The translations under genes and the position numbers were made by a program. A stretch of DNA of 64,000 nucleotides from Ideonella sp. (lineage in GTDB: Bacteria > Pseudomonadota > Gammaproteobacteria > Burkholderiales > Burkholderiaceae_C): positions 669,792 to 733,791 of the forward strand of contig JABTUC010000002.1 in assembly GCA_015075545.1 (NCBI GenBank), given 5' to 3'. Under the pieces are notes generated by a model. It was not told where the DNA came from. It searched no databases and saw nothing but the letters and a program-made list of their open reading frames with translations. Position 1 is the stretch's first letter; every line of letters begins with the position of its first letter. This document shows, piece by piece, positions 38,590-63,538 of the stretch.

Positions 38590-38596
38590 TGCCCGT

Positions 38597-39763: not shown

Positions 39764-39790
39764 GAGCCGGCCGGTCGCAGGCGATCCGCG

Positions 39791-39826
39791 CTTGATGCGG
39801 TGATGCAGTAGAATCAACGCATCAAG
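39791..39826 (+). promoter_or_regulatory. Inverted repeat, likely VapBC operator
   Basis: CTTGATGCG (39791-39799) and CGCATCAAG (39818-39826) are perfect 9-bp arms with an 18-nt spacer, ending 16 nt before the antitoxin ATG. A TAGAAT (39809-39814) between the arms is a possible -10 element. Such a site fits autoregulation by the VapB-VapC complex. Confidence 0.6.
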
Positions 39827-39842
39827 ACAGGCGAGGCAGATC

Positions 39843-40091: not shown

Positions 40092-40098
40092 TCGCGCC

Positions 40099-40530: not shown

Positions 40531-40537
40531 GCCGGGC

Positions 40538-41134
40538 GTGGTCAAGCGCGGATTCGATCTGCTGCTGGTCGGCGTCGGGCTGATCGTGTTGGCGCCGCTG
40601 CTGCTGGCGGCAATGCTGTGGGTGCGGCTGGATTCGCCCGGCCCGGCGTTGTTTCGGCAGGAGCGCGTGGGCCGGCACGGGCGGCTGTTTCGGATCCACA
40701 AGCTGCGCACGATGCGCGCCGACGCGCCGGCGGTCGGCCCGGCGATCACAGCGCACGCCGATGCGCGCGTCACGCGCGCGGGCCACTGGCTGCGCCGCTA
40801 CCGCATCGACGAGCTGCCGCAGTTGATCGACGTGCTGCGCGGCGACATGAGTCTGGTGGGCCCGCGGCCCGAGCTGCCGCGCTTCGTCGCGCTGTATCCG
40901 GCCGAGCTGCGCGCCAAGGTGCTGGCCGTGCGCCCGGGCATCACCGACCCGGCGTCGCTCGAGTTCGTCGACGAGAGCGAACTGCTGGCGGGCAGCCCCG
41001 ACCCCGAGCGCACCTACGTCGAGACCATCCTGCCGCGCAAGCTGCAACGCCAGGTGCAGTACGCTGAGCGCGCCACCTGGTGGACCGACCTCGCAGTGAT
41101 GGCGCGCACGCTGCGCGTGTTGCTGGCGCGGTGA
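40538..41134 (+). CDS. Initiating undecaprenyl-phosphate sugar-phosphate transferase
   Basis: 198 residues of the bacterial sugar transferase family (PglC/WlbG-like short form): one N-terminal reentrant hydrophobic helix (FDLLLVGVGLIVLAPLLLAA), LDSPGPALFRQERVGRHGR, KLRTMRADAP, DELPQLIDVLRGDMSLVGPRPELP and ending with PGITDPASL. It starts glycan assembly by moving a sugar-1-phosphate, probably a 6-deoxy-HexNAc derivative, to undecaprenyl phosphate. The GTG at 40538 follows the toxin stop by 7 nt. Confidence 0.9.
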   Translation: MVKRGFDLLLVGVGLIVLAPLLLAAMLWVRLDSPGPALFRQERVGRHGRLFRIHKLRTMRADAPAVGPAITAHADARVTRAGHWLRRYRIDELPQLIDVLRGDMSLVGPRPELPRFVALYPAELRAKVLAVRPGITDPASLEFVDESELLAGSPDPERTYVETILPRKLQRQVQYAERATWWTDLAVMARTLRVLLAR

Positions 41135-41136
41135 CA

Positions 41137-43161: not shown

Positions 43162-44279
43162 GCGCAAACGACAGTGGCCCCCTGATCGACATCGTCGCCG
43201 GCGCGCGACCCAACTTCATGAAGATCGCGCCGATCATCCGCGCGATCGAGGCGCGGCAGAAGGCGGGAAGCGCGCTGCGCTGGCGCCTGGTGCATACCGG
43301 CCAGCATTACGACGCGCGCATGTCGGCCGACTTCTTCACGCAACTCGACATCCCGGAGCCCGACGTCAACCTCGAGGTCGGCTCGGGCACGCAGGCCGAG
43401 CAGACGGCGGCGATCATGGTGCGCTACGAGGCGCTGCTGGTGAAGCAGCGCAGCGCGCTGTGCCTGGTGGTGGGTGATGTCACCTCGACGATGGCGTGCG
43501 CCATCGTGGCGCAGAAGCTGTGCGTCGCGGTGGCGCACGTCGAGGCCGGCATCCGCTCGGGCGACTGGACGATGCCCGAAGAGATCAACCGCATGGTGAC
43601 CGACGCGATCACCAACTGGTTCTTCACCACCAGCGAGGTGGCCAACGACAACCTGCGGCGTGCCGGCGTCCGCAACGAGCGCATCTTCTTCGTCGGCAAC
43701 ACGATGATCGACACCCTGCTGGCCAACCTGCCGCGCCTGAGGGCGCCGTCGTTCTGGGGCGAGGCCAGGCTGCAGCCGGGTGGCTATTTCGTGATGACGA
43801 TGCATCGGCCGGCCAACGTCGACACCGCGCAAGGCTTCGCCGCCGTGCTGAAGGCCATCGGCGACGGCGTGCGCGGCATGCCGGTGGTGTTTCCGGTGCA
43901 CCCGCGCACGGCCAAGACGCTGGCGGCGCTGGGCGAGCTGCCGAACAACCTGCTGCTCGTCGACCCGCAGCCGTACCTGGAGTTCAACTACCTGGTCAAG
44001 CATGCCAAGGCCGCGATCACCGACTCCGGCGGCGTGACCGAAGAGACCACGGTGATGGGGGTTCCGTGCATCACGATGCGCAACACCACCGAGCGACCCG
44101 AGACCGTGACGCTGGGCACCAACGAGCTGATCGGCACCGATCCAGCACAGTTGAAGCCTGCGCTCGATCGCCTGTTCGATGGTGGCTGGAAGACCGGCAG
44201 CGTGCCGCCGTTGTGGGACGGCAAGACGGGCGAGCGCATTGTCGAGCGGCTCGAGGCGTTGCTGGCCGCGCCTCGATGA
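43158..44279 (+). CDS. wecB: UDP-GlcNAc 2-epimerase (WecB family)
   Basis: 373 residues, nonhydrolysing epimerase fold with GARPNFMKIAPI, HTGQHYDARMSADFF, VGDVTSTMACAIVAQKL, VAHVEAGIRSGDWTMPEEINR and DSGGVTEETTVMGVPC. The NFMKI form and the YDARMS segment are of the UDP-GlcNAc to UDP-ManNAc type and differ from the WbpI-like paralogue at 35467. It starts in an ATGA overlap with the dehydratase gene and converges with the minus-strand epimerase 15 nt later. Confidence 0.88.
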   Translation: MSANDSGPLIDIVAGARPNFMKIAPIIRAIEARQKAGSALRWRLVHTGQHYDARMSADFFTQLDIPEPDVNLEVGSGTQAEQTAAIMVRYEALLVKQRSALCLVVGDVTSTMACAIVAQKLCVAVAHVEAGIRSGDWTMPEEINRMVTDAITNWFFTTSEVANDNLRRAGVRNERIFFVGNTMIDTLLANLPRLRAPSFWGEARLQPGGYFVMTMHRPANVDTAQGFAAVLKAIGDGVRGMPVVFPVHPRTAKTLAALGELPNNLLLVDPQPYLEFNYLVKHAKAAITDSGGVTEETTVMGVPCITMRNTTERPETVTLGTNELIGTDPAQLKPALDRLFDGGWKTGSVPPLWDGKTGERIVERLEALLAAPR

Positions 44280-44294
44280 TTTCGCGTCGCGCGC

Positions 44295-45281
44295 TCAGCC
44301 GAATCCACCGGCCTTCCACTGCCTGAGCCAGGCGACGAAGCGGCGCAGGCCTTCGCTCAACGGCGTCGACGGCTCGAAGCCCACGCGCTCGCGCAGCCGC
44401 GTGACGTCGGCGCAGGTCATTGTCACGTCACCTGGCTGCGGGCCCAGCATCTGCAGCTTGGGCTGAACACCGAGCGCGGAGGCCAGCGTCTCGACGAACT
44501 CGAGCACCGTCACCGGCGCGTGGTTGCCGATGTTAAACACCTCGTGCGGCGGCGTCGCCGGCGGCGGCGATGCAAAGGCGACGCGCACCACGCCTTCGAC
44601 GATGTCGTCGATGTAGGTGAAGTCGCGCTGCAGCTTGCCATGGCCGAACACCGGCAGTGCCTCGCCCGCGAGCAGCTTCTCGGCGAAGCTGAAGGCGGCC
44701 ATGTCGGGCCGGCCCCACGGGCCGTAGACCGTGAAGAAGCGCAAGCCGGTGGCGCGCAGGCCGTAAAGGTGGCTGTAGGTGTGCGCCATCAGCTCGTTGG
44801 CCTTCTTGGTTGCCGCGTACAGCGACACCGGCGCATCGGTGTTCTGCGTCTCGCGAAAGGGCGGGTCGGTGCGGTCGCCGTAGACGCTGCTGGAGCTGGC
44901 GTACACGAGGTGCTGCACCCTGTGGCGGCGGCAGGCCTCGAGCACGTTGGCGAAGCCCACCAGGTTGGACTGCACGTAGGTCTCGGGGTGGTTGATCGAG
45001 TAGCGCACGCCGGCCTGGGCGGCAAGGTGGACCACGACGCCCGGCTTCACCGCTTCGAACAGCGCACGCACGGCAGCCGCGTCGGCGAGCTCGACGGCGT
45101 CGCAGCGCACGCCGCACGGCGCCAGCAGGTGCGCAACACGAGCGCGCTTGAGCGCCGGGTCGTAGTAGTCGTTGAAGTTGTCGCAACCATGCACCGTGTG
45201 CCCCTGCTCCGCCAGGCGCGCGGCGACGAACGAGCCGATGAAGCCGGCGGCGCCGGTGACGAGGATGACAGGGTCGGGCAT
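44295..45281 (-). CDS. NAD-dependent epimerase, UDP-glucuronate 4-epimerase-like
   Basis: 328 residues, extended SDR: VTGAAGFIGSFVAARL, CDNFNDYYDPALKRAR, SSSSVYG, catalytic YAATK and LRFFTVYGPWGRPDMA. The DNFNDYYDPxLKxAR segment is the hallmark of UDP-glucuronate (or GlcNAcA) C4-epimerases. It would convert UDP-GlcA from the ugd product to UDP-GalA. ATG 45281 is the start; the frame runs only 5 codons further to a TTG. It is the only minus-strand gene in this part of the locus. Confidence 0.88.
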   Translation of the reverse strand: MPDPVILVTGAAGFIGSFVAARLAEQGHTVHGCDNFNDYYDPALKRARVAHLLAPCGVRCDAVELADAAAVRALFEAVKPGVVVHLAAQAGVRYSINHPETYVQSNLVGFANVLEACRRHRVQHLVYASSSSVYGDRTDPPFRETQNTDAPVSLYAATKKANELMAHTYSHLYGLRATGLRFFTVYGPWGRPDMAAFSFAEKLLAGEALPVFGHGKLQRDFTYIDDIVEGVVRVAFASPPPATPPHEVFNIGNHAPVTVLEFVETLASALGVQPKLQMLGPQPGDVTMTCADVTRLRERVGFEPSTPLSEGLRRFVAWLRQWKAGGFG

Positions 45282-45416
45282 GGCGGTGGCACGCAACGAG
45301 ACGCCGCATTGTCAGCGATGGCACCACGAGCCGCGATGCGTGGGCAGCGCAGACGCCGCTCGCCCGACGCCTCCGTGCAGAAACGAATCGCCACTTCAAG
45401 ACTGCCATGGGTTGGT

Positions 45417-45434
45417 GCATCAAGATGCTAAGAT
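45417..45434 (+). promoter_or_regulatory. Short palindrome and -10-like box before the second antitoxin
   Basis: GCATC-AA-GATGC (45417-45428) is directly followed by TAAGAT (45429-45434), seven bases before the antitoxin ATG. The octamer GCATCAAG also occurs in the operator of the first VapBC module (39819-39826). It is likely an autoregulatory site. No convincing -35 box is at a normal distance. Confidence 0.4.
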
Positions 45435-45440
45435 GACAAA

Positions 45441-45716
45441 ATGCGAACAACGATCGATCTGCCGGAGGCGACGCTGCGCCAACTCAAGGCCAGAGCCGCT
45501 CTGGAGGGTGTGCAGATGAAGGAGTTGGTGCTCGGGTACGTGCAGCACGGCCTGGCGCGGCGGCCAGCCCCGGCGCAGGCCGTCATGCGCAGCCCGCTGC
45601 CCGACCTGGTGCCGAACAAGCCGCTCGCGCTGCGCCGGCCCAAGAACGCCGCGCTGTTCGCCGCCCTCGACGAGGCCGACGCGCGGTGCGCCACGGGCAG
45701 ACGGCGTGCGCGTTGA
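45441..45716 (+). CDS. vapB: VapB-type antitoxin, second module
   Basis: 91 residues with MRTTIDLPEATLRQLKARAA and LEGVQMKELVLGYVQHGL forming a ribbon-helix-helix domain, then a tail with LPDLVPNKPLALRRPKN. It belongs to a different subfamily from the antitoxin at 39843. Its partner toxin gene, overlapping by 11 nt, is frameshifted, so this is an antitoxin that may have outlived its toxin. Confidence 0.8.
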   Translation: MRTTIDLPEATLRQLKARAALEGVQMKELVLGYVQHGLARRPAPAQAVMRSPLPDLVPNKPLALRRPKNAALFAALDEADARCATGRRRAR

Positions 45717-46159
45717 GGCAGGCGATCTGCTCGACGTCAACGTCCTGGTTGGCGCTGGCTGCGCCGTCACACGTGCACCACGGCGCGGCGCGCGCCTACT
45801 GGATGCAGCCCGTACTGCCGCGGCTGTGGTTCAACCGCATCACGATGCTCGGCCTTGTGCGCCTGCTGTGCGAGCCCAAGATCATGGGCGAGGCCAAGCT
45901 GTCGCCGACCAGGGCGCTGGAGGTCTACGAGCACCTCGAGGCGCTGCCCGAGGTGGGCTTCATGGACGAGCCGCCAGCCTGTGGTCCGGCCTTCGCTGCT
46001 GCGCTGCGCTCGATGGCGCCGAGCTCCGGCCGGTTGTTGACCGACCTCTACCTGGGCTGCTTCGCTCAGGCAGCGCAATTGCGTCTGGTGACATTCGATC
46101 GTGACTTCGAGCGCTTCGCCGGGCTTGCGGTGCTGCGCCTATCACCCGCGGGGAAATGA
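45706..46159 (+). pseudogene. Frameshifted PIN-domain toxin gene (vapC)
   Basis: Translation from GTG 45706 gives AGDLLDVNVLV, the PIN start with its first catalytic Asp, and then leaves the family pattern. The +1-shifted frame resumes at once with ALAAPSHVHHGAARAYW and continues to RLVTFDRDFERFAGL and a stop at 46159. One extra G at 45751-45752 (ctggttggcg) explains both halves. Either the toxin is inactivated or this is a sequencing error. All later motifs are intact, so the event would be recent. Confidence 0.8.
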
Positions 46160-46289
46160 CGCCCTTCGTGCGAGGGTGTCGGAGTGGGGCCTTGGTTGAG
46201 GGAGCGGTCGGATACCGCCGCTCTGGCGCGATCCACGAGAATGCGCGGTCTGTCCTCGCCCACCAGCAACCTGCAGCAGCCCTCTCACC

Positions 46290-47612
46290 ATGAAGATCAC
46301 CCTCGTCGGCTCCGGCTATGTCGGCCTCGTCACCGGCGCCTGCCTGGCCGAGATGGGCAACCACGTGGTGTGCCTCGACGTCGATGCCGGCAAGATCGCG
46401 CTGCTGCAAGGCGGCGGCGTGCCGATCCACGAGCCCGGTCTCGAGCCGCTGATCCAGCGCAACGCCGCCGCGGGCCGGCTGCAGTTCACCACCGACACCG
46501 ACGCTGCGGTGCTGCACGGCACGGTGATCTTCATCGCGGTGGGCACGCCGCCCGGTGAAGACGGCTCGGCCGACCTGCGCTACGTGACGCAGGCCGCGCG
46601 CTCGATCGGCCAGCGCATGACCGACTACAAGCTGATCGTCGACAAGAGCACGGTGCCGGTGGGCACCGGCGACGCGGTGGAAGCCACCGTCCGCGCGGCA
46701 CTCACCGAGCGCGGCGTCGACGTCGCGTTCTCGGTGGTGTCGAACCCCGAGTTCCTGAAGGAAGGTGCCGCGATCGAGGACTTCATGAAGCCCGACCGCG
46801 TGGTGGTCGGCAGCGACGACGAGCGGGCGATCCACCTGATGCGCGCGCTGTACGCCCCGTTCATCCGCAACCGCGACCGCCTGCTGGTGATGGACCGCCG
46901 CAGCGCCGAGCTCACCAAGTACGCGGCCAACGCGATGCTGGCCACGCGCATCAGCTTCATGAACGAGCTGGCCAACCTCGCCGAGCGCATCGGCGCCGAC
47001 ATCGAGCTGGTGCGCCAGGGCATCGGCAGCGACCCGCGCATCGGCACGCAGTTCTTGTACCCCGGGTGCGGCTACGGAGGGTCGTGCTTTCCCAAGGACG
47101 TGAAGGCGCTGATGCACACCGGCCAGCAGTCGGGGTTGCAGTTGCGCGTGCTCGGCGCCGTGGAGGCCGCCAACGAGCGGCAGAAGAGCGTGCTGGTCGA
47201 CAAGGTGGTGGCGCGCTTCGGCGCCGACCTGACCGGCCGGCGCTTCGCGCTGTGGGGGCTGGCGTTCAAGCCCGGCACCGACGACATGCGCGAGGCGCCG
47301 AGCATCGCGGTGATCCAGGGGCTCACCGAGCGCGGCGCGTCGGTGGCGGCCTACGACCCGGTGGCGATGGCCGAGGCCAGGCGGCACCTGGCCGACGTCA
47401 AGTCACTCGACTACGCGTCGAGCAGCGATGCCGCGCTTGCGGGCGCCGACGCGCTGATCATCGTCACCGAGTGGAAGGAGTTCCGCAGCCCGGACTTCGA
47501 TGCGCTCAAGGCGACGCTGCGGCAGCCTGTGATCTTCGACGGGCGCAATTTGTTCGATCCGAGGCTGGTGCGCGAAATGGGGCTTGAGTACCACGGCATC
47601 GGGCGCGGGTAA
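46290..47612 (+). CDS. ugd: UDP-glucose 6-dehydrogenase
   Basis: Oxidises UDP-glucose to UDP-glucuronate with 2 NAD. 440 residues: [18 protein letters not shown] Rossmann start, [34 protein letters not shown] and the catalytic Cys266 in YGGSCFPKD. The [14 protein letters not shown] form separates it from WbpA-type UDP-GlcNAc dehydrogenases. Its product feeds the UDP-GlcA 4-epimerase (44295) and the UDP-GlcA decarboxylase (48271) nearby. The 130 nt upstream contain no gene. Confidence 0.95.
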
Positions 47613-47885
47613 GGTCGCGATTCCACCACCTTATGGTGAAATGGCGCCCACAGCGCGTCGCGCGATGGACTGCGTCTCTCGTCCAAAATGCAGTGGCTCT
47701 GCACATTGGACGAACCGCAGGCGCTGCCATGGTTTCGCCCCGACCAGACGAGCGACAACTGGACAAGCCCGTAAACAGTCGTGTGCCATCTCGGCTTCGG
47801 GGTCACGGCCCCTGACAAGCAGGGTCTCGCGTGGCTGTGGAGCAGGGTTGTACAAATTCAAAGCCGTTCTTTGAATCTGTACGGA
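47613..47885 (+). other. Non-coding stretch between ugd and the ATPase remnant
   Basis: No gene-like frame is convincing here. The last third contains a strong 14-bp-arm palindrome (47850-47882). The rest has no recognised feature; base composition is a little lower in GC than the flanking ugd gene. It may be the left side of an old insertion. Confidence 0.5.
47850..47882. promoter_or_regulatory. Strong inverted repeat before the ATPase remnant
   Basis: GTACAAATTCAAAG (47850-47863), loop CCGTT, then CTTTGAATCTGTAC (47869-47882): 13 of 14 positions pair. It ends 3 nt before the ATG of the truncated ATPase gene, so it is either an operator overlapping the promoter or a hairpin over the start site. 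It is AT-rich compared with its surroundings. Confidence 0.6.
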
Positions 47886-48143
47886 ATGCTGTCCCGCGAC
47901 TCCTCCGCAGCACTGCATCGGCTGGCGCACAGTCTTCCGATCGTCGTGGTCACCGGGACGCGGCAATCCGGCAAGATCAGGCTGGTGCGGCAGGCCTTCC
48001 ACGAACTGCAGTACGTGACCCTCGAAGACTTGGACAGGTACGACCGCGGGCTGTCTGACCCGCGCCGCCTTCTCGATCTGCATGCCGATGCCGTCCTCGA
48101 CGAGGTGCAGCGTGCGCCGGGTCTGATGTCGTATCTGCTTGGA
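47886..48143 (+). pseudogene. Truncated AAA_14-type ATPase gene (5' end only)
   Basis: About 85 residues match the N-terminus of the ATP-binding AAA_14/DUF4143 family: SLPIVVVTGTRQSGKIRLVRQAF, YVTLEDLDRYDRGLSDPRRLL and [16 protein letters not shown] (Walker B). The family is normally around 380-420 residues, so some three quarters are missing. The Walker A reads GTRQSGKIRL, with Ile where Thr or Ser should bind magnesium. Truncation occurs where IS66-like sequence begins. Confidence 0.75.
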
Positions 48144-48270
48144 ATCGACGGCTACGATCCCTTGTCTACCTCAACGACGTGCTGCGGCGATTGCCCACCC
48201 AGCTCAACAGCCGCGTGGAGGAGTCGTCGGCGCGCGTGGGCGCCGATATGCGCGCGACGATAATGAAGGT

Positions 48271-48274
<4 letters not shown>
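48144..48274 (+). mobile_element. Remnant of an IS66-family transposase 3' end
   Basis: In the ATPase frame GIDGYDPL appears, then one base further on a shifted frame reads [17 protein letters not shown]. Joined, [19 protein letters not shown] fits the C-terminal NGxDPxxYLxDVLxRLPTQ segment of IS66 TnpC transposases. A single missing G at about 48164 explains the shift. The segment decays after RVEE and runs into the start of the next gene, whose ATG overlaps the frame's TGA at 48272. No inverted terminal repeat was recognised. Confidence 0.6.
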
Positions 48275-49230
<956 letters not shown>

Positions 49231-53627: not shown

Positions 53628-54446
53628 TCAGAGCTTGCCCTTCAGCACGCGCCAGTACACGGACATGCCACCGTAGCCCAGCAGCAGCAGCGGCGCGGCG
53701 ACCGGAAACGCCCAGCGCCAGCCGCCGCGCTCGGCGGCCAGTCGAATCACGCGCATCACCTTGCGCATGTGGCGCCACTTGCTCGCGGACAGCGACCCGG
53801 AGAGCCGGCGGTAGGCAACCAGCGGCAGCGCGATGCGCAGCACCCGGAAGCCGGGGCGTTCCATCAGGCGCAGCCACAGGTCGTAGTCTTCCACTGCGAC
53901 CAGTTCGCGCGCGACGTCGAAGGCGCCATCGCACAACAGGTGCTCACGCCGGCACAGGACGCTGGAGGTGGCGATGCGATCCTTGATCAGCATCTGCCAG
54001 TACGGCAGCGGGTGTGCGGGCATATCGGTTGGTAGACGCATCTGGCGCAGCGGCGGGCGCTGCCCGTCGACGAAGTCCTCGATCGCGCTGCAGACCAGGT
54101 CGGCCCCGCTGCGTCGCGCCAGGTCGAGTTGCACGCGCAGCTTGCGGGGGTGCCACAGGTCGTCGGCATCGCACAGTGCGACCCACTCGCCGCGCGCGGC
54201 CCGCACTGCCTGGTTGCGCGGCGCCGCCGGGCCGCCGCTGTTGGCTGGCGTGCGCAAGTAGCGCACTCGTGGGTCTCGCTGCGCCGCTTGCGCCACGCAG
54301 TCTGCCGTGTCGTCGCTGGAGCAGTCGTCGACGACGAGCAGCTCCAGCGCCACCTCCTCCTGCGCGAGGATGGATGCGATCGTCTCCGGCAGGTGGCGTG
54401 CCGCGTTGTACGCAGGCACCGCTACCGAAACTTCTACTGCCGTCAC
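53628..54446 (-). CDS. Family 2 glycosyltransferase
   Basis: 272 residues with VSVAVPAYNAARHLPETIAS, LLVVDDCSSDDT and the metal-binding CDADDLWHPRKL, then EDYDLWLRL, the acceptor-side motif of O-antigen and capsule GT2 enzymes. A hydrophobic C-terminal stretch (WAFPVAAPLLLLGYGGMSVY) may anchor it. The GTG start overlaps the pseI stop by 4 nt. Confidence 0.87.
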   Translation of the reverse strand: MTAVEVSVAVPAYNAARHLPETIASILAQEEVALELLVVDDCSSDDTADCVAQAAQRDPRVRYLRTPANSGGPAAPRNQAVRAARGEWVALCDADDLWHPRKLRVQLDLARRSGADLVCSAIEDFVDGQRPPLRQMRLPTDMPAHPLPYWQMLIKDRIATSSVLCRREHLLCDGAFDVARELVAVEDYDLWLRLMERPGFRVLRIALPLVAYRRLSGSLSASKWRHMRKVMRVIRLAAERGGWRWAFPVAAPLLLLGYGGMSVYWRVLKGKL

Positions 54447-55486
54447 GCCAGCAGGTCCCAGGTGAGCGGCGTTCCCGCCGGGGCGTCGCGATTGATGCGC
54501 TTGCCCAGCATCGTGTCGTAGTACTTGGGCGCCATCCCGAAGCCCGGCCGCACGATGCGCAGCGTGGCCTCGCTGAGCACGTCACCGGCCTTCATGTCGC
54601 GTGCGATGTACAGCGTGCGGCGGAACACCCGCGACTTTTCCTCGGCAGCGGTGCCGCCGTAGCTGACGTGGCCGAGGCCCTGCCACGCGCGTTCGGTTTC
54701 CACTCGCAAGGCCGCGAACTCCTGCGGCTCCAGCGAGAACGCCGAATCGACGCCACCATCGGCCCTGCGCAGGGTGAAGTGCTTCTCGATCACCGTGGCA
54801 CCCAGCGCGACGGCTGCCACCGCGACGCCGCAACCCATGGTGTGGTCCGACAGGCCGACCTCGCAGCCGAACGCATCTCGTAGGTTGGGAATCGTGCGCA
54901 GGTTGCTGTTCTCCGGCGTCGCGGGATAGGTGCTCGTGCACTTGAGGAGCACCAGGTCGCGACACCCAGCGTCGCGCGCGGTGCGCACTGCTTCGTCGAT
55001 CTCGCCGCAGGTGGCCATGCCAGTGGAGATGATCATCGGCTTGCCGGTGCGCGCGACCTTGCGGATCAGAGGCAGGTCGGTGCATTCGAAGGACGCGATC
55101 TTGTAGGCCGGCACGTCGAGGGATTCGAGGAAGTCGACCGCGGTGTCGTCGAACGGCGTGCTGAAGCAGTGCAGCCCGTGCGACGCCGCACGCGCCATGA
55201 TCGGCCCGTGCCATTCCCACGGTGTGTGCGCCTCGTCGTAGAGGTCGTGCAGCTGCCGGCCGGCCCACAGGCTGCCGGGGTCATCGATGACGAAGCCAGG
55301 CACACGCACGTCGAGTGTCATCGTCTCGGCGGTGTAGGTTTGCAGTTTGAGGGCGTCGGCGCCTGCATGGGCCGCCGCGTCGACGATTTCGAGGGCCCGG
55401 TCGAGCGATCGGTTGTGGTTGCCGGACATCTCGGCAATCAGATAGGGCTTGACGCCCAGGCCCAGCGCACGGTCGGCGATCTTCAT
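54443..55486 (-). CDS. pseI: Pseudaminic acid synthase
   Basis: Condenses 2,4-diacetamido-2,4,6-trideoxy-L-altrose with phosphoenolpyruvate to pseudaminic acid. 347 residues: a NeuB-type TIM barrel with YLIAEMSGNHNRSLDRA, ADALKLQTYTAETMTLD, YKIASFECTDLPLI, LLKCTSTYPA and GLSDHTMG, and a C-terminal antifreeze-like SAF domain (SRVFRRTLYIARDMKAGD). The EMSGNHN start is the PseI rather than the NeuB or LegI variant. The ATG at 55486 overlaps the PseG-H stop by 4 nt. Confidence 0.93.
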   Translation of the reverse strand: MKIADRALGLGVKPYLIAEMSGNHNRSLDRALEIVDAAAHAGADALKLQTYTAETMTLDVRVPGFVIDDPGSLWAGRQLHDLYDEAHTPWEWHGPIMARAASHGLHCFSTPFDDTAVDFLESLDVPAYKIASFECTDLPLIRKVARTGKPMIISTGMATCGEIDEAVRTARDAGCRDLVLLKCTSTYPATPENSNLRTIPNLRDAFGCEVGLSDHTMGCGVAVAAVALGATVIEKHFTLRRADGGVDSAFSLEPQEFAALRVETERAWQGLGHVSYGGTAAEEKSRVFRRTLYIARDMKAGDVLSEATLRIVRPGFGMAPKYYDTMLGKRINRDAPAGTPLTWDLLA

Positions 55487-57045
55487 GGGTGCATCCCCTG
55501 CAGCGAGCTTCTCTCGGGCGCCACAGGCCAGCTCCACTGCGGCCCGCCACGCACGAATCCAGCGCCTTCGAAGGCCCGCATCGACGCCCGATTGGCGGGC
55601 AAGATGGTGGCGACCAGCCGTTCGAGCGCCGTGTTCTCTCGCGTCCAGCGCTGGCCTGCGCGCAGCAGGCGCGGGCCCAGGCCTAGGCCGGTCAACGCCG
55701 GATCGAGGTAGATCGACACCTCGGCCTGCGTGCCTTCGATGTCGAGCCTCAGCACGCCGACGTTGCGCCCGCCGATGTGGGCGACGAAGAGGCGGCGCGC
55801 TGGATCGGCTAGCGCGCCCGACCACCAGCGACGATGGTCGACGGGATCGATCTCGCGTGTGTCGCACGAGTGGCGGCGGGTCGACTCGTCGTTGCGCCAG
55901 GCGAAGCTACATTCGGCATCCTCGGCTCGCGCGGGGCGCAGGGCCAGCGTGTCGGCCCCCAAGGCGACCGCGACCCGGCGCGCCCCGAGGCCGTCGACAA
56001 GGGCGCGCGCGCGCTGCGCGAGCGCCCGGCGGCGGGGTGCGTCGGCGAGCAAGTCGGCCACGGCCCGACCGACGGTGGTAACCGAAGCTGCTTCATGCTC
56101 GGCCAGCGCGGCAGCTGCACCGATGACAGCCAGTTCGCGCACGACCACCTGCTGGTTCGCGGCCGCTTGAAGCAACAGCATCGGTGCGCCAGCGCAGCAT
56201 CGCTCCCACGTGGCTCCGCCGCCAGCGCCGATCTGCAGGCCGTGGCGTGCGAAGAACGCTGCCAGGTCGGGCAGGTCGACCGACACCCGGGGGTCGGCCC
56301 AGCGGCCGGCCCGCGCCTGCAGGCCGGCCAAGTGCGCACTGGCGCCGGTGGCGACGATCTCGATCGGGCCGCTGAAGCCAGCCTGCTCCCGGCACGCGCG
56401 TAGCGCCAGTGAGGCAAGGTCCGTCGAGTCGACGCCACCCATGAAGATACCGATGCTGGCTACTGCATCGTCGATCCGCGCCGGCTGCAGGCCCGCGTAG
56501 GCCGGCCCCAGCAGCGCGAAGCGGGGCCCGCCGAGCAGTGCCGTCGCGGCACCGACGAGCGCGCCATACTTTCTGCGGTGATCGGCGTGCAGGTTGTGGT
56601 CGATCAGGCAATCGACCTCATGCGGCCGGTCGGCCAGGTCGTCGATGGCCGCCATGCGCACGCCTAACGATTGCGCCACTTGGCGCTGCCAGCGCGCGTC
56701 GAAGGCGTAGTGGTCGACGACTACCCAGCCGCAGTGCCAACCCGCCAGCGCCTCGGCCGTCTGCCGTGCATCGTCGGACCAGCGCGCGCCGGCCCAGCCT
56801 GCGTGCGCCACCGGGTCGTCGGCGACGCTCAGTCCGGGTACCGACGCTGGCAGTAGCACGGACTCGACACCAGCGGCGCGGGCTAGGCTGGCCGTGTCCA
56901 AATCCAGCTGCCGCGTGACTAGCCGGATCTGCGCGCCGCAGTCGCGCAGCGCGGCGGCGAGCGCTAGGCAACGCACAATGTGACCGGTCCCGGATGCCTG
57001 CGAGGCATCAGCCCGCAGCGCGACGCGAAGGGGGGGCATGCTCAC
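55483..57045 (-). CDS. PseG-PseH fusion: UDP-sugar hydrolase plus GNAT N-acetyltransferase
   Basis: 520 residues in two parts. Residues 1 to about 355 are PseG, the UDP-2,4-diacetamido-2,4,6-trideoxy-altropyranose hydrolase: RADASQASGTGHIVRCLALA with the catalytic His22, DHYAFDARWQ, and a C-terminal GAGGGATWERCCAGAP donor-site loop. Residues about 365-510 are a GNAT domain (LALRPARAEDAECSFAWRND, LDPALTGLGLGPRLL) matching PseH, which acetylates the C4 amino group before PseG acts. Separate genes are the rule in Campylobacter; here consecutive steps are joined. GTG 57045 is in a GTGA overlap; ATG 57039 is alternative. Confidence 0.88.
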   Translation of the reverse strand: MSMPPLRVALRADASQASGTGHIVRCLALAAALRDCGAQIRLVTRQLDLDTASLARAAGVESVLLPASVPGLSVADDPVAHAGWAGARWSDDARQTAEALAGWHCGWVVVDHYAFDARWQRQVAQSLGVRMAAIDDLADRPHEVDCLIDHNLHADHRRKYGALVGAATALLGGPRFALLGPAYAGLQPARIDDAVASIGIFMGGVDSTDLASLALRACREQAGFSGPIEIVATGASAHLAGLQARAGRWADPRVSVDLPDLAAFFARHGLQIGAGGGATWERCCAGAPMLLLQAAANQQVVVRELAVIGAAAALAEHEAASVTTVGRAVADLLADAPRRRALAQRARALVDGLGARRVAVALGADTLALRPARAEDAECSFAWRNDESTRRHSCDTREIDPVDHRRWWSGALADPARRLFVAHIGGRNVGVLRLDIEGTQAEVSIYLDPALTGLGLGPRLLRAGQRWTRENTALERLVATILPANRASMRAFEGAGFVRGGPQWSWPVAPERSSLQGMHP

Positions 57046-57815
57046 ACTGCGATGAAGTTCATCCGCACTGGGATGCCAGCGGCATGCATGGCCTGCTTGG
57101 CGCCGGCCGGGGTCTGCTCGGTGAAGTGGAAGATGCTGGCCGCCGCCACCGCAGAGGCGCCGGCCTCCTTGACCACGCGGACCAGGTCGGCGTAGCTGCC
57201 GGCGCCGCCGGAGGCGATGACGGGAATGTCGACCGCGGCCACGACGCGCGACACCAGCTCAATGTCGTAGCCATGCATCGTGCCGTCGCGGTCGATCGAG
57301 GTGAGCAGGATCTCGCCTGCGCCTCGCGATGCCACCTCGCGGGCCCACTCGACTGGGTCGCGGCCGGTGTCGCGCCTGCCCGAATGGCTGAACACCGAGT
57401 AGCGCCCGTCCGCGTGGCGGCGGGCGTCGATGCTAGCAACGACGCATTGCGCACCGAAACGGGCTGCCGCCTCTTCAACGAATGCCGGGTGCTCGACGGC
57501 GGCGCTGTTGATGCTGACCTTGTCGGCGCCGGCACGCAGCAGGGTGGCGATCTGGGCCACCGTGGTCACGCCACCGCCGACGGTGAGCGGCACGCTGCAT
57601 TCGTCGGAGAAGTCCGCCACCGACTCATGGTCGGGTGCCTCGCTTGTCGAAGTGGCGGTGATGTCGACTAACACCAGTTCGTCCACGTCGCGCGTGTTGT
57701 AAACCTTAAGCGCCGGCAGCACCGGCCCCACGCGGCGCCAGCTGTCGAAGCCCACACCTTTGACGAGGCCCAGGTTCTTCCACAGCAGGGTCGGGATGAC
57801 GCGAACCTTCAGCAC
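57042..57815 (-). CDS. hisF: HisF-like cyclase subunit paralogue (amidotransferase partner)
   Basis: 257 residues of (beta/alpha)8 barrel: [74 protein letters not shown] and [10 protein letters not shown]. It aligns without gaps to the HisF N-terminus, but residue 11, the catalytic Asp of HisF, is Leu, while the second Asp (in SIDARR) is kept. No other his gene is near. I infer it does not cyclise histidine precursors but channels ammonia from HisH to the amidotransferase, as HisF2 is thought to do beside WbpG. It starts with GTG, 7 nt inside hisH. Confidence 0.85.
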
Positions 57816-58429
57816 GGTACGTAATCCAGGAAATTGCGCAGCAACTGGCGCCCTGCCTTCGAGCTCTTCTCCGGGTGGAACTGGGTGCCGAAGACGTTGC
57901 CCTGGCGCACCGCCGCCGTCACCAGCACGCCGTAGTCGGTGGTGGCTGATACGAACTCCTGGCTCTCGGGTTCGAACGCGAAGCTGTGCACGAAGTAGAA
58001 GTCGGAGCCAGAAGGGATGTGGCCGAACAGCGGGTCGGATGCCTGGCATCGGACCTCGTTCCAACCGACATGAGGGACGCGCAGGGTGCAGCCGATGGCA
58101 TCGAGCCGGCGCACGCGGCCCGGGACTAGGCCCAGGCCGGACGTTGTGCCGCCTTCGTCGCCGGCGCTGGCCAGCATCTGCATGCCCAGGCAGATGCCGA
58201 GCAGCGGCTTGCCCTCGTGCACTATGCGGCGCACCACCTCGACCCAGCCGCCATCGCGCAGATGAGCCATACCCTCACCAAAGGCGCCGACGCCTGGCAG
58301 CACGGCGCGGTTGGCTTCGAACAACGCGGCCGGGTGCTCAGCGACGAAAACCTGCACACCCAGGTCCTCGAGCGCTCTGCGCACCGAGCCGAGGTTACCC
58401 ATGCCGTAGTTGACGATGCCGACCTTCAT
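57809..58429 (-). CDS. hisH: HisH-like glutaminase paralogue (ammonia donor)
   Basis: 206 residues, class I glutamine amidotransferase: VGIVNYGMGNLGSVRRAL, PGVGAFGEGM, nucleophile Cys80 in LLGICLGMQML and the His185/Glu187 pair in GTQFHPEKS. The full triad is intact, so it should release ammonia from glutamine. It sits between the sugar amidotransferase (ATGA overlap) and the HisF-like gene (7-nt overlap), which points to a three-subunit complex rather than histidine synthesis. Confidence 0.88.
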   Translation of the reverse strand: MKVGIVNYGMGNLGSVRRALEDLGVQVFVAEHPAALFEANRAVLPGVGAFGEGMAHLRDGGWVEVVRRIVHEGKPLLGICLGMQMLASAGDEGGTTSGLGLVPGRVRRLDAIGCTLRVPHVGWNEVRCQASDPLFGHIPSGSDFYFVHSFAFEPESQEFVSATTDYGVLVTAAVRQGNVFGTQFHPEKSSKAGRQLLRNFLDYVPC

Positions 58430-59580
58430 GCGTTGTCGTGATTCAGCTTCTCGAGGTTCCCGTGCTTGTCCTTGGCCAGCGCGCCGGCGCCGTCGCGCTT
58501 GAAAATCTTCTTGTTGGTGAACTTGTCGCAGACCTTGACGAACTCGTCGACCGTCATGTCCAGCGGATCGAGGATGTCCGCCAGCGGCTTGCCCAGATAG
58601 GTCCACGGGAACTTGCCGTCGCGCTTGCGGACGATCTCGAGTGCGTCCTGGCGCGAGATGCGACCACGCCTCACGTGCAGGCAGGCGATGTCGGTCGCGC
58701 GCGAGAAACCGAACTTCAGAAACTTGAAGTAGTCGTGGATGCCGGTCTGGTGATTGTCCAGGTTCTCGTAGTTCACCATCGACCCTTCGACGGCACGGTC
58801 CAGCGACGTGAAGCCGTTGGCCTGCGAGATGAGCGCGTTGGACAGGCCGTCCCAGGGCAGGTAGTGGCCAAGGAAGAGCCCGGTGACGCCGACGCGCTGC
58901 AGCGCTTCGTCGCTGGGGTACTGATACGGAAGCAGGTGACGCGGCTCGATGCCGTAGGTCTGCGATAGGTCGGTGACGCGCAGGCCGAGCAGGCCGCCGA
59001 ACTCCTCCAGCCAGCGCCGGGTGAGCACGTTGTTCTGCGCCGCCGCGGCCGGGCCGCCGTACTCGTTCTGCGAGTTCTCGCCCCAGACGATCAGCGGCAC
59101 GTCGAACTGGACCGCGGCGCGCACCGGGATCGTGAAGATGCCGACATGCTCGGGCCAGGAGATGTCGCCCACCTCCGTGAGGCCGATTCGGTTCAGACGC
59201 GCCCGCACGAGCGGGTTGGGCGAGAACTCGACGTAGTCGACGCCGAGGCGCTTGATGTTCTCGATGTTCTCGCGCCCGATGTCGCTCAGGTCGCAGGTGG
59301 TTGCGGTCACGCACAGCGGGTTCAGGCCCAGTTGCAGCATGCGCACCACCTGGTAGGTGCTGTCCTTGCCGCCGCTGACCGGCACGATGCAGTCCCAGTT
59401 CGAGCCGTGTCGCCGGTAGCGATCGAGGACACCGAGCAGTTCCTCGCGCCGCTGACTCCAGTCCACTGCCTTGCGCTGCTCGTAGGCGCGGCAGGCGTTG
59501 CAGACCCCCTGCTCGTCGATGTGTAGGTCAGGCTTGGTGTGCGGCATCACGCAGCGGACGCAGTACTTGAGCATGTTCAT
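58426..59580 (-). CDS. pseA: N-acetyl-sugar amidotransferase (PseA/WbpG family)
   Basis: 384 residues. It begins with a zinc-like cluster C7/C10 and C27/C30 (YCVRCVMPHTKPDLHIDEQG, then VCNAC), followed by an ATP-pyrophosphatase PP loop VPVSGGKDST (69-74) and WGENSQNEYGG. The family converts a sugar N-acetyl group to an acetamidino group, on pseudaminic acid (PseA, Campylobacter) or on ManNAc(3NAc)A (WbpG, Pseudomonas O5). Location inside the pse operon favours pseudaminic acid. Its partners hisH and hisF follow with overlapping ends. Confidence 0.88.
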   Translation of the reverse strand: MNMLKYCVRCVMPHTKPDLHIDEQGVCNACRAYEQRKAVDWSQRREELLGVLDRYRRHGSNWDCIVPVSGGKDSTYQVVRMLQLGLNPLCVTATTCDLSDIGRENIENIKRLGVDYVEFSPNPLVRARLNRIGLTEVGDISWPEHVGIFTIPVRAAVQFDVPLIVWGENSQNEYGGPAAAAQNNVLTRRWLEEFGGLLGLRVTDLSQTYGIEPRHLLPYQYPSDEALQRVGVTGLFLGHYLPWDGLSNALISQANGFTSLDRAVEGSMVNYENLDNHQTGIHDYFKFLKFGFSRATDIACLHVRRGRISRQDALEIVRKRDGKFPWTYLGKPLADILDPLDMTVDEFVKVCDKFTNKKIFKRDGAGALAKDKHGNLEKLNHDNA

Positions 59581-60203
59581 GCCCTCTTCTCCATCAGGAA
59601 CCAGGTGACGTCGTCTTGCGGGAATGCCGGGTCGCGCCGGTAGGCGAAGCCGTAGTCGACCAGCGACAGCGCGGGAAACATGTCCAGCATCTCGCCGGCG
59701 AAGTCGCGCTTGAAGAGGCGGTCGGAGTGGCCGCGGTAGGGAATGGCCACCGGCGTCGGGTTGTAGTACTCGCACACCAGCAGCCAGCGCCGGGTGGCGT
59801 CGTACAGCTTGCGGTAGGTGTGGGCCAACATCTCGGGGTTTAGGTGAATGAGCACGCCCTTGATGAGCGCCAGGTCTGCCTGCTGCCCATCCGGGGCATC
59901 GAAGATCGATCCCAGGAACACGTTCTCCGGCCCGACCAGCTGCGCCAACTGCGCAGCAGCGTCGGCGTTGATCTCGATGCCGCGCGCCGCCAGGCCCGGG
60001 TAGAGCAGCTTCAGCGCGCGTAGGTTCATACCGATATTGGCGCCGAACTCGACACAGGATCCGATACGCGCGGCGCGCCGCAGCGCGCAGGCGAAGAAGT
60101 TCAGGTTCGAGGCCAGCAGGCCGCTGCTTTCGTTGCGGCCGATGTATTGGGTGCCGAACGCACCGGCCCAGAACGCCTCCTGTTCGGTCTTGAAGGGCAT
60201 CAT
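59577..60203 (-). CDS. Pseudaminic acid biosynthesis-associated methylase
   Basis: 208 residues: FKTEQEAFWAGAFGTQYIGRN at the N-terminus, SAM motif I SCVEFGANIGMNLRAL, and LALIKGVLIHLNPEML. The TEQExFWxGxFGxxYIxRN opening is the signature of the Pse-associated methylases found next to pse genes. Substrate unproven. It begins in an ATGA overlap with the cytidylyltransferase gene; two consecutive ATGs (60203, 60200) are possible after AAGGAAG. Confidence 0.85.
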   Translation of the reverse strand: MMPFKTEQEAFWAGAFGTQYIGRNESSGLLASNLNFFACALRRAARIGSCVEFGANIGMNLRALKLLYPGLAARGIEINADAAAQLAQLVGPENVFLGSIFDAPDGQQADLALIKGVLIHLNPEMLAHTYRKLYDATRRWLLVCEYYNPTPVAIPYRGHSDRLFKRDFAGEMLDMFPALSLVDYGFAYRRDPAFPQDDVTWFLMEKRA

Positions 60204-60946
60204 TCTTCCTTGGTCGTCCGCGCTACGGTCTTCTGCCGGACGTGACGGTTGAGTTGCACCCACTCTGGGTGCTCGTCCAGGAGGGCCAGCACGTCCGCCA
60301 TGCCGAAGTCGGGTTGTCGGGGGTACAGCGTGGTCAAGATTCGCGAAACCAATTCCAGGTCCTCTGGCGTGTCCACGGTCCATCGGTTGGCGCTGAGGTC
60401 GGGCTCCATCGTCAGCGACTTGAGGCGGAACCGCTCGGGCTGCCAGTAGACGAACGGCGTGACGTGCTCGCGCTCGGCCGCGTCGGTGGCTTCGGCGTCG
60501 GCTTGGAGCAGTGCTTCGCGCGTGATCACCTCGACTGCCATGCCGTAAGGCCACGTGGGCTGGATCATGTTCGACAGGTAGTCGCAGGGCTCTCCGGTGC
60601 GGAAGGTCGTCACCGCTAGGTCGACGAGCGCCGGCTCGATCAGCGGACAGTCGGAAGTGACGCGCACGACGATGCTGGCGTCGAAGGCGCGTGCCGCCTG
60701 GGCATATCGGGACAGGACGTCCAATTCAGACCCGCGCGTGCAGGCAATCAATTCCGACTCGCAGAAGGCGACGATAGCGTCGTCGGCCACCTGGGCGGTC
60801 GTGGCCACGACCAGACGGTCGACCTGCCGGCAGCGGCGCAGACGCTCGATCTGGTAGGACAGCATCGGCCGGCGGGCGATCGGCGCCAGCACCTTGCCAG
60901 CGAGCCGCGTCGACCCCATGCGTGCCTGGATGACGACGACGATCAT
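60200..60946 (-). CDS. SpsF-type nucleotidyltransferase, probable CMP-pseudaminic acid synthetase (PseF role)
   Basis: 248 residues with the nucleotide-binding start VIQARMGSTRLAGKVLAPI, RVTSDCPLIEPALVD and RWTVDTPEDLELV. This is the SpsF/cytidylyltransferase family (KdsB/NeuA relatives). In pse clusters without a canonical PseF this gene type stands in its position, so CMP activation of pseudaminic acid is the likely function. It lies 2 nt after pseC. Confidence 0.82.
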   Translation of the reverse strand: MIVVVIQARMGSTRLAGKVLAPIARRPMLSYQIERLRRCRQVDRLVVATTAQVADDAIVAFCESELIACTRGSELDVLSRYAQAARAFDASIVVRVTSDCPLIEPALVDLAVTTFRTGEPCDYLSNMIQPTWPYGMAVEVITREALLQADAEATDAAEREHVTPFVYWQPERFRLKSLTMEPDLSANRWTVDTPEDLELVSRILTTLYPRQPDFGMADVLALLDEHPEWVQLNRHVRQKTVARTTKEE

Positions 60947-60948
60947 GT

Positions 60949-62109
60949 TCAGCGTAAGGCGGCGGTGAGCGTGCGCACGACGAAATCCTGCTGTTCGCCG
61001 GTCATCGCCGGGAACAGCGGCAAGGTAATTGCGCGCGCGTAGTAGCGCTCGGCGGCTGGGAAGTCACCGCGCTTGAACCCGAGCGAAGCATAGTACGGCT
61101 GGGTGTGGATCGGGATGTAGTGAACGTTGGCGCCAATGCGCGCGCGGCGCAGCGCGTCGAACAGAGTGGCGCGGCGGCAGGCGGTGCGTGCACCATCGAT
61201 CTCGACTACGTAAAGATGCCACGCCGACACTCGGTCGGGCACGCGCGCTGGCAGCAGCAAAGGCAGGTCGCGCAGAAGCATGTCGTAGCGGTCGGCCAGC
61301 GCCACGCGCGCAGCATGCAGCGCGTCGAGCCGCTTCAGCTGTGACCAGCCGAGCGCGGCCTGCAGATCCGTGAGCCGGTAGTTGTAGCCCAAGAGTTGCT
61401 GCTCGTAGACCCACGGGCCTTCGACCTCGTGCTGCAGGTCCTCCGGCTCGCGCGTCATGCCGTGCGAGCGCAGCAGACGTAAGCGCTTGGCCAGCGCCGC
61501 GTCGCGCGTCGTGACGACACCGCCTTCGGCCGTGGTCACGATCTTCACCGCATGGAAGCTGAAAGCAGTAGCGTCGGCGTAGTCGCTGCCCACGGGCTGG
61601 CCCTGATAGCTGGCGCCGGTCGCGTGTGAGGCGTCCTCCAGCAGCGCAAAGCCGTACTTGTCAGCGAGCTCGCGCATCTCGCGCAGGTCGCACGGCAGGC
61701 CCGCGAAGTCGACCGGAATGACCACCTGTGGCAACTCGCCGCGTCCCGCGGCGCGCTCCAGCTTTGCGCGCAGGGCCGCGACCGACATGTTGCGCGTCAC
61801 CGGGTCGATGTCGACGAAGTCGATATCGCCGCCGCAGTACAGGACGCAATTGGCCGACGCCAGGAAGCTGTTCGGCGAGGTCCAGACGCGGCTGCCGGCG
61901 GTGACGCCCAGCGCCAGGCAGGCCACGTGCAGCGCCGCCGTCGCATTGGCCATCGCGACAGCGTGCCTTGCGCCGACGCGGCGCGCGAACGTCTCCTCGA
62001 ATTGGGCCACCATCGGCCCCTGGGTCAGGTATTCGGAGCGCAGCACCGCAGTAACGGCGGCGATGTCGTCGTCGTCGATGTTCTGGTGGCTGTACGGGAT
62101 GTGCGACAT
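60949..62109 (-). CDS. pseC: UDP-4-amino-4,6-dideoxy-N-acetyl-L-altrosamine transaminase
   Basis: The second enzyme of the pseudaminic pathway. 386 residues, DegT/DnrJ family: SHIPYSHQNIDDDDIAAV, LTQGPMVAQFE, VWTSPNSFLASANCVLYCGG, LLEDASHATGASY and the Schiff-base Lys in FSFHAVKIVTTAEGG. The N-terminus and the TSPNSFLASANC segment are typical of PseC. Stop and start are separated from pseB by 7 nt. Confidence 0.94.
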   Translation of the reverse strand: MSHIPYSHQNIDDDDIAAVTAVLRSEYLTQGPMVAQFEETFARRVGARHAVAMANATAALHVACLALGVTAGSRVWTSPNSFLASANCVLYCGGDIDFVDIDPVTRNMSVAALRAKLERAAGRGELPQVVIPVDFAGLPCDLREMRELADKYGFALLEDASHATGASYQGQPVGSDYADATAFSFHAVKIVTTAEGGVVTTRDAALAKRLRLLRSHGMTREPEDLQHEVEGPWVYEQQLLGYNYRLTDLQAALGWSQLKRLDALHAARVALADRYDMLLRDLPLLLPARVPDRVSAWHLYVVEIDGARTACRRATLFDALRRARIGANVHYIPIHTQPYYASLGFKRGDFPAAERYYARAITLPLFPAMTGEQQDFVVRTLTAALR

Positions 62110-62116
62110 GGCGCGC

Positions 62117-63127
62117 TCAGCAGGCAGGGCTATTCGCCTCGAATGATCGAATCAGCGTTCTCAGTTGCTCGACTGACAGGAAATCGCTGTTGCGCCCGCT
62201 GTCGTAGGCGAATCCGGGGTCGACGCGAGTCGCGCCCATGCGTTCGCAATACTCTTCGATCGAATAGTTGCCGGCAGCCGGCAGAATGGCGAAGTAACGA
62301 CCCAGGTCGACGGTGTTGAAGCTGTCGCTGGCGGTGATCATCTCCTCATGGATCTTTTCGCCCGGTCTGATGCCGACGATCTCGTGGCGGCACTCGGGCC
62401 CGATCGCGCGTGCGACATCGGTGATTCGGTACGACGGGATCTTTGGCACCAGTACCTCGCCGCCCCACGTGTGCTCGAGCGCCCACAGCACCATGTCGAC
62501 CCCGTCCTGCAGAGAGATGTTGAAGCGCGTCATCCGCGGGTCTGTGATTGGCAGCGAGCCGGATCTGCGCTTCTCCAAGAAGAACGGAATGACCGAGCCG
62601 CGGCTGCCCATCACGTTGCCGTAGCGGACCACGCTGAAGCGAACGTCGCGCTTGCCCTTGATGTTGTTGGCAGCGACGAACAGCTTGTCCGAGCACAGCT
62701 TGGTGGCACCATACAGATTGATGGGCGCGGCGGCCTTGTCGGTGGAAAGGGCAACCACTCGTTCGACGTGGCAATCAAGGCAGGCCTCGATGAGGTTCTG
62801 GGCGCCGATGATGTTGGTCTTGATGCACTCGAATGGGTTGTACTCCGCTGCCGGCACCTGCTTGAGCGCAGCCGCGTGTACCACGTAGTCGACGCCTTCG
62901 AGCGCGCGACGCAGACGCGCCTCGTCGCGGATGTCCCCGATGAAATAGCGCAGGCCAGCATGCACGCGGTCGGAGTACACCTGCGACATCTCGTACTGCT
63001 TGAGCTCATCCCGCGAATACACGACCAGGCGTCGTATGCCGGGGTAGCGCGCCAAAACCGTTCCGACGAATGCCTTGCCGAATGAACCGGTCCCACCGGT
63101 AATGAGTATTGCTTTGTCGTCGAGCAT
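62117..63127 (-). CDS. pseB: UDP-N-acetylglucosamine 4,6-dehydratase (inverting)
   Basis: Starts pseudaminic acid synthesis by making UDP-2-acetamido-2,6-dideoxy-beta-L-arabino-4-hexulose. 336 residues, short soluble SDR: ILITGGTGSFGKAFVGTVL, VVYSRDELKQYEMSQVY, HAAALKQVPAAEYNPFE, STDKAAAPINLYGATK with catalytic Asp, Lys and Tyr, and RYGNVMGSRGSVIPFF. It is 42 nt after the MarR regulator gene, the longest gap in this part of the operon, which may hold a promoter. Confidence 0.95.
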   Translation of the reverse strand: MLDDKAILITGGTGSFGKAFVGTVLARYPGIRRLVVYSRDELKQYEMSQVYSDRVHAGLRYFIGDIRDEARLRRALEGVDYVVHAAALKQVPAAEYNPFECIKTNIIGAQNLIEACLDCHVERVVALSTDKAAAPINLYGATKLCSDKLFVAANNIKGKRDVRFSVVRYGNVMGSRGSVIPFFLEKRRSGSLPITDPRMTRFNISLQDGVDMVLWALEHTWGGEVLVPKIPSYRITDVARAIGPECRHEIVGIRPGEKIHEEMITASDSFNTVDLGRYFAILPAAGNYSIEEYCERMGATRVDPGFAYDSGRNSDFLSVEQLRTLIRSFEANSPAC

Positions 63128-63169: not shown

Positions 63170-63538
63170 TCACTGACGGGGTGCGTCGAGCTCGTTCCGC
63201 AGCATGGCAATGGTGTTCCGCAGGACCTGATACTCGGCTTCCTTACGGGAGAGGAACGCTCGCGTTAAGCGTAGCTTCTGGCGCAATCCTGCCGGAGTCA
63301 GGACGTATGCATACGCCATCTTCCTATCACTGCGCTTGAAATTGCGCACCTTGACAAGCCCCCTATCAAGCAGGGCGTGCAGCACGTAGTGCGTCTTGCC
63401 CAAGCTGAGCCCCAAAGCGCGCGACAGCTCTCGCTGTGACACTTCTGGGCGTGCGGCCAAGAGTCGCAGTGCCTCGAGTGCGCGTGCACTGTCGGTGTCT
63501 TCGGTGGCCATGCCAAGAGGTGATATGGGTGCGTTCAT
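63170..63538 (-). CDS. EPS-associated MarR family transcriptional regulator
   Basis: 122 residues with a winged helix (EALRLLAARPEVSQRELSRA, LGLSLGKTHYVLHALLDRG, VKVRNFKRSDRKMAYAYVLT) and a C-terminal helix (FLSRKEAEYQVLRNTIAMLR). This matches the small MarR-type proteins that accompany exopolysaccharide loci in betaproteobacteria. It is the first regulator of the pse operon and the only transcription factor besides RpoH in the window. ATG 63510 is an alternative start. Confidence 0.85.
   Translation of the reverse strand: MNAPISPLGMATEDTDSARALEALRLLAARPEVSQRELSRALGLSLGKTHYVLHALLDRGLVKVRNFKRSDRKMAYAYVLTPAGLRQKLRLTRAFLSRKEAEYQVLRNTIAMLRNELDAPRQ

Follow-up and report, generated by a model that had tools for sequence, protein, structure and literature searches.

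A probable glutamine-dependent amidination cassette within a CMP-pseudaminic acid operon of Ideonella sp.

Why would an operon for the sugar pseudaminic acid (Pse) carry paralogues of HisH and HisF next to an amidotransferase gene? We approached this question in a stretch of 64,000 nucleotides from Ideonella sp. (assembly GCA_015075545.1, contig JABTUC010000002.1, positions 669,792 to 733,791), the whole of which is here called the window. The original prediction, made from the sequence alone, placed PseA/WbpG, HisH and HisF in overlapping genes between a Pse methylase and PseG-H; the outer limits (57042-59580) proved exact, the overlaps are present, and NCBIfam scores together with gene order confirmed the identities. 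It is likely, judging from the sequence evidence below, that the three genes form a glutamine-dependent amidination cassette set into an operon for cytidine monophosphate (CMP)-pseudaminic acid. The trio consists of the following genes:

58426..59580, minus strand: WbuX/PseA-type N-acetyl sugar amidotransferase, 384 amino acids, ATG start; TIGR03573 315.7 bits, cut-off 203.2
57809..58429, minus strand: HisH-type glutaminase, 206 amino acids; TIGR01855 227.1 bits, cut-off 105.4
57042..57815, minus strand: HisF paralogue (WbuZ), 257 amino acids, GTG start; TIGR03572 301.5 bits, cut-off 299.7

The amidotransferase has a PP-loop (SGGKDS at residue 69) and a tetracysteine motif (residues 7-30), the two marks of the WbuX family according to the LpNASAT structure paper (PMC10607449). 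In a set of 101 WbuX sequences the PP-loop form SGGXDS is found in 88 and CXXCXn[GN]XCXXC in 97, and the window protein has both. It matches the LpNASAT structure (PDB 8wex, E=7.8e-40) over residues 16-330 and shares with this solved fold the family, with its PP-loop and zinc site, although LpNASAT is a distant relative and its structure was solved without HisH/HisF; it has been proposed to use ATP and to join ammonia to an N-acetyl group of the sugar (PMC10607449). No second WbuX was detected at E 0.001 in the host assembly (3.69 Mb, 13 contigs, 85% complete). The HisH protein matches PDB 4gud (E=4.1e-44) and has an intact catalytic triad (C80, H185, E187), as have 80 of the 80 copies tested, 12 further matches having been excluded for a stop within the hit.

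The HisF paralogue scores best as WbuZ, falling below the cut-offs of both AglZ/HisF2 (AglZ_HisF2, NF038364; 269.3 bits, cut-off 310) and histidine hisF (TIGR00735; 256.2 bits, cut-off 294.55). It shares a saccharide locus with both WbuX and a HisH homologue, as the definition of WbuZ asks, and a separate hisF above the histidine cut-off (364.4 bits) is found elsewhere in the host genome (C1:24168-24938). In HisF, D11 and D130 are the acid-base pair of the cyclase, and the ammonia gate is made up of R5, E46, K99 and E167. Aligned to HisF-LUCA, the window protein has leucine in place of D11 and N at position 14 but keeps R5, E46, K99, D130 and E168 (equivalent to E167 of Thermotoga maritima). 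K99 has been described as part of the ammonium gate in T. maritima HisF (PMC10115891), and a table of signature residues for 1thf includes D11, K99 and D130 (PMC5980557).

The same pattern was found in the relatives. HisF matches longer than 640 bases and at most 2.5 kb from a WbuX match were collected from the fetched loci, and after removal of copies identical over hit residues 16-180 there were 92 sequences including that of the window, with none lost to stops. All 92 lack D11, D130 or both. D11 is lost in 78 of them (residues at 11/130: L/D in 69, T/D in 4, I/D in one, T/P in 3 and P/P in one), whereas in the other 14 D11 is intact and position 130 is E; these are mostly near legionaminic-type synthases (L221, L233, L219, L223, L227, L226, L229, L234, L035, L228, L218, L222, L235 and L220). 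The ammonia gate reads R-E-K-E in 88 of the 92 and R-E-R-E (K99R) in the remaining 4. In contrast, D11, D130 and the gate are all intact in 21 of 21 control HisFs, all from one family, of which the host genome's own was scored with the histidine model and 20 were hand-picked as presumed histidine HisFs. Loss of a cyclase aspartate together with retention of the gate supports a HisF that would serve as a dead-cyclase ammonia conduit feeding PseA; cyclase activity has thus probably been lost in the trio, and the residues suggest that amidination HisFs shed the cyclase chemistry by more than one route yet kept the ammonia pipe. A limited literature search found no printed account of this pattern, which is not proof of newness. 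It offers a simple sequence test that separates HisFs of amidination from those of histidine synthesis, two kinds still sometimes mixed up in annotation, and makes channelling of ammonia to WbuX a testable idea. For example, Cj1315c and Cj1314c of Campylobacter have been given a histidine reading in spite of tags adjoining that of pseA (PMC12102941), and the D11/D130 test could clear up such cases.

The surroundings of the trio are those of a pseudaminic acid operon, with the remaining genes as follows:

63170-63538, minus strand: small winged-helix protein, MarR/IclR-like, 122 amino acids, directly upstream of PseB; possible operon regulator
62117..63127, minus strand: PseB dehydratase; TIGR03589 520.2 bits, cut-off 407.75
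60949..62109, minus strand: PseC aminotransferase; TIGR03588 518.2 bits, cut-off 423.5
60200..60946, minus strand: cytidylyltransferase (CTP-transferase), probable stand-in for PseF; PF02348 106.3 bits, PseF TIGR03584 25.3 bits against a cut-off of 205.7
59577..60203, minus strand: Pse_Me-ase, pseudaminic acid biosynthesis-associated methylase; TIGR03587 278.1 bits, cut-off 112.05
55483..57045, minus strand: PseG-PseH fusion (hydrolase and N-acetyltransferase); TIGR03590 207.6 bits at residues 7-304, TIGR03585 41.8 bits at residues 373-499, GNAT PF13302
54443..55486, minus strand: PseI pseudaminic acid synthase; TIGR03586 484.3 bits, cut-off 340.25
53628..54446, minus strand: family 2 glycosyltransferase; PF00535 119.1 bits, 4-base overlap with the PseI stop

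PseB, PseC, PseG and PseI all score above their NCBIfam cut-offs. The PseF and PseH equivalogs fall short (25.3 of 205.7 and 41.8 of 93.1 bits), and the stand-ins for these two steps are the PF02348 cytidylyltransferase and the GNAT domain of the fusion. The fusion itself is ordinary, as neighbouring PseG and PseH lie in one continuous open frame in 36 of 50 pairs from the loci retrieved, among which a few genomes occur twice. Every junction from the cytidylyltransferase to the glycosyltransferase overlaps by 4 bases, including the methylase stop with the WbuX start and the WbuX stop with HisH, except for HisH/HisF with 7, which fits a single transcript.

In the proposed mechanism, HisH would hydrolyse glutamine and the ammonia would then pass through the barrel of the HisF paralogue, with the cyclase lost and the gate kept. 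The PP-loop enzyme WbuX/PseA would use ATP to activate one N-acetyl oxygen of (CMP-)Pse5Ac7Ac, and ammonia would displace the activated oxygen to give an acetamidino group. The sequence itself shows the genes, their order, the catalytic motifs and the residues lost and kept in HisF; we infer which sugar is the substrate, where it carries the amidine, that ammonia is physically channelled to WbuX and that the sugar is used in a surface polysaccharide. By analogy with Campylobacter PseA, a CMP-Pse5Ac7Am acetamidino-synthase (PMC13317340), the product would be Pse5Ac7Am, with Pse5Am7Ac as the alternative. After labelling with 1,2-diamino-4,5-methylenedioxybenzene (DMB), Pse5Ac7Ac appears at m/z 451.18 and the acetamidino form at m/z 450.20 (PMC7371886). 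Delivery of the sugar to flagellin by a Maf protein is weakly disfavoured, as no PF01973 (Maf) match was found in the genome, which is 85% complete.

Several known systems resemble this arrangement. Methanococcus maripaludis AglX-AglY-AglZ, an amidotransferase with HisH/HisF homologues, reportedly places an acetamidino group on an archaeal N-glycan uronic acid, and the system of Pseudomonas aeruginosa O5 has the three-part make-up WbpG-HisH2-HisF2. Campylobacter jejuni differs from the window in having separate PseG and PseH, a PseF and no known Pse_Me-ase beside PseA; the TIGR03572 (WbuZ) text describes the trio as always together and counts C. jejuni PseA among its amidotransferases. In Campylobacter, PseA (Cj1316c), HisH (Cj1315c), HisF (Cj1314c) and PseH (Cj1313) have consecutive tags, so that, judged by gene tags, the same three genes stand beside PseH (PMC12102941). 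The P. aeruginosa system, like that proposed here, amidinates an N-acetyl sugar, but its substrate is a mannuronic acid derivative (PMC10607449). PtmG and PtmH of Legionella and Campylobacter amidinate and then N-methylate a CMP-nonulosonic acid (PMC3766260), in their case legionaminic acid at position 5. The original prediction regarded the three-part combination as unusual, which cannot be upheld given the Campylobacter tags and the existing NCBIfam models for WbuX, WbuZ and AglZ/HisF2; the glutamine-fed synthesis of an acetamidino nonulosonic acid that it proposed is still the best and a likely reading, while its premise that the HisH/HisF pair was new to a pse operon was wrong. Its chemistry is probably right, and the trio of the window is a well-supported copy of a known module. 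No paper treating at least two of WbuX, WbuY and WbuZ was found in the literature searched.

The genome survey that the original prediction had called for indicated that the trio is common in pse loci, rather than rare. Among the 299 genomes of the family sample, WbuX is above its cut-off in 42 and PseI in 29, and in 12 of these 29 the pse locus includes the full trio of WbuX, HisH and HisF (G000, G273, G035, G044, G134, G207, G109, G200, G227, G078, G013 and G143). In 16 of the 29 the 17-20 kb surrounding PseI contain no WbuX match, while G099 has its closest WbuX 15 kb away, beside another synthase type. The exact gene order of the window recurs in G035, G044 and G134 (WbuX at least 77% identical), and G273 has the same order and WbuX similarity with no match to the cytidylyltransferase. 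For a wider view, 84,980 species were scanned with an alignment of eight methylases, which gave 303 relatives, and the best 80 were kept, a set leaning towards close relatives of the window's methylase (L134, L137 and L151 appear to repeat family-sample genomes; they were kept in locus counts, while identical sequences were removed from sequence counts). WbuX lies within 200 bases after the methylase in 51 of these 80 loci, from alpha-, beta- and gammaproteobacteria, cyanobacteria, Bacteroidota and one Myxococcales bin, and the nearest WbuX among them, from a Rubrivivax metagenome bin, is 91% identical to that of the window. HisH and HisF follow just downstream in 48 of the 51, thus in 48 of the best 80 methylase loci; the other three are L118 (contig edge), L140 (WbuX split in two) and L155 (no match). 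PseI of at least 45% identity is present in 41 of the 51, and at least one pse gene in 49. The family scores of the trio and the synteny conserved in other genomes exclude a chance occurrence of the trio genes.

In the 29 methylase loci without an adjacent WbuX, PseG directly follows the methylase nine times, so the trio appears to behave as a cassette that is gained or lost between these two genes. In L140 (8001-12481, Hydrogenophaga bin) the WbuX gene is broken into two overlapping pieces, no HisH/HisF stand ahead of PseG, and the cassette seems to be decaying. In L143 (2331-4919, Rhodoferax) the usual slot between methylase and PseG is empty, and a trio whose WbuX is of another type is located upstream of PseB. 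If our reading holds, amidinated pseudaminic acid is predicted for many free-living bacteria, for example the Limnohabitans strains with the operon (L144 and L145), and such a charge-altering nonulosonic acid decoration may be widespread.

Which sugar is modified was approached with the WbuX neighbourhoods and a tree of 80 rows, thinned from 101 plus the window, in which Campylobacter PseA is not among the rows, several rows are long and the deep order is unsure. The window WbuX falls in a starred clade of 26 rows, made up of 23 with pse genes, two unlabelled and the window; adding the Bacteroidota and G207 types gives a group of 31 rows (support 95/85), 28 with pse genes. Of the 18 rows with legionaminic-type-synthase neighbours, 15 make up a clade of their own, two branch off deeper and one is next to the pse group. 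Six changes of the pse label are needed on the tree, so repeated recruitment of WbuX into pse loci is probable. At 70% identity or more to the window's WbuX, 46 non-redundant sequences were counted (its own included), in a set biased because most members came from the methylase search; 42 have PseC or PseI within 9 kb, the other four have neither, and a legionaminic-type synthase alone is found in none.

Some observations count against the amidination of pseudaminic acid by the complete trio. WbuX is found also in legionaminic-type and other loci, and since it occurs in several locus types the family alone cannot name the sugar. Membership of HisF in WbuZ is marginal (301.5 against 299.7, and only 298.6 in a six-frame genome search, in which the TIGR03572 cut-off was exceeded in only 2 of the 299 family genomes). 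No HisH/HisF match was found near WbuX in G132 and L155, and according to the TIGR03572 text WbuX homologues can work without the pair. That HisH/HisF are redundant or a histidine back-up, with WbuX fed by free ammonia, is nevertheless very unlikely. WbuY/WbuZ are reportedly non-essential for WbuX activity. The Campylobacter pair has been interpreted as histidine genes (PMC12102941), but a proper hisF is present elsewhere in the host genome, all 92 trio HisFs have lost a cyclase aspartate and kept the gate (K99R in 4), and the pair is retained in 48 of the 51 loci with adjacent WbuX. We give equally little credit to the trio acting on another sugar, for example a uronic acid or an amino hexose belonging to the polysaccharide genes nearby, with its location among pse genes incidental. 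WbuX homologues do use several sugars (mannuronic acid for WbpG and N-acetyl-L-fucosamine, L-FucNAc, for WbuX; PMC10607449), and two WecB-type epimerases and a nucleotide-sugar dehydrogenase are encoded in the window, among the 20 of its proteins scanned for this. However, pse genes flank the trio and the gene starts overlap, the arrangement turns up again alongside pse genes across several phyla, and in five of the six family genomes with a window-type WbuX (at least 77% identity) it is in a pse operon with PseB, PseC, PseG and PseI, the sixth (G011) having PseB alone beside it.

The adjoining Pse_Me-ase raises the question whether the amidine is N-methylated further, as by PtmH, for which methylation after amidination is the legionaminic acid precedent (PMC3766260). 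This would add to the amidination of pseudaminic acid and not replace it. WbuX adjoins six of the seven family methylases above cut-off, window included (in G132 it is of another type), and directly follows the methylase in the 51 named loci. On the other hand, it is not adjacent in 29 of the 80, nine of which have the methylase directly before PseG, and among the 11 methylases above cut-off in the class sample of 369 genomes, WbuX is within 1.5 kb in only three of the ten besides the window's (L100, L103 and L107). We consider further methylation unlikely. A methylase strictly specific for the amidine is weakened by those 29 loci and the other seven of the ten, and the nine methylase-PseG loci and the class-sample methylases without WbuX indicate that the enzyme is useful without an amidine. 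In the fullest version the Pse_Me-ase would act on the trio's amidine to give a new N-methylated acetamidino pseudaminic acid, and WbuX would bind to the open face of the catalytically dead HisF barrel, with ammonia travelling through all three proteins; as a whole this is quite improbable.

Elsewhere in the window, a second polysaccharide gene set lies on the plus strand (35380-49230), with the two WecB-type epimerases, an aminotransferase, a sugar phosphotransferase, the nucleotide-sugar dehydrogenase and a PF02719 dehydratase. The methylase is on 4 Sinorhizobium plasmid records; in the one opened, no WbuX or pse gene matched within 9 kb. WbuX matches were found on 16 plasmid records, all below 60% identity, and one (Azospirillum) was opened. 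In this locus (L082 8163-11122, Azospirillum brasilense plasmid p5) an asnB-type glutamine-hydrolysing synthase precedes WbuX, with no HisH/HisF match in 21 kb, and is possibly an alternative ammonia source. In four family genomes (L036 9012-12572, L040 9678-13165, L041 11205-14715 and L044 8726-12231) a single HisH-HisF pair downstream of PseI has a different WbuX on each side; the set follows PseI directly in three of the genomes and at a distance of 2 kb in L041. On the tree one of the copies falls next to the legionaminic-type WbuX and the other elsewhere, with long branches, which suggests that these loci amidinate both N5 and N7.

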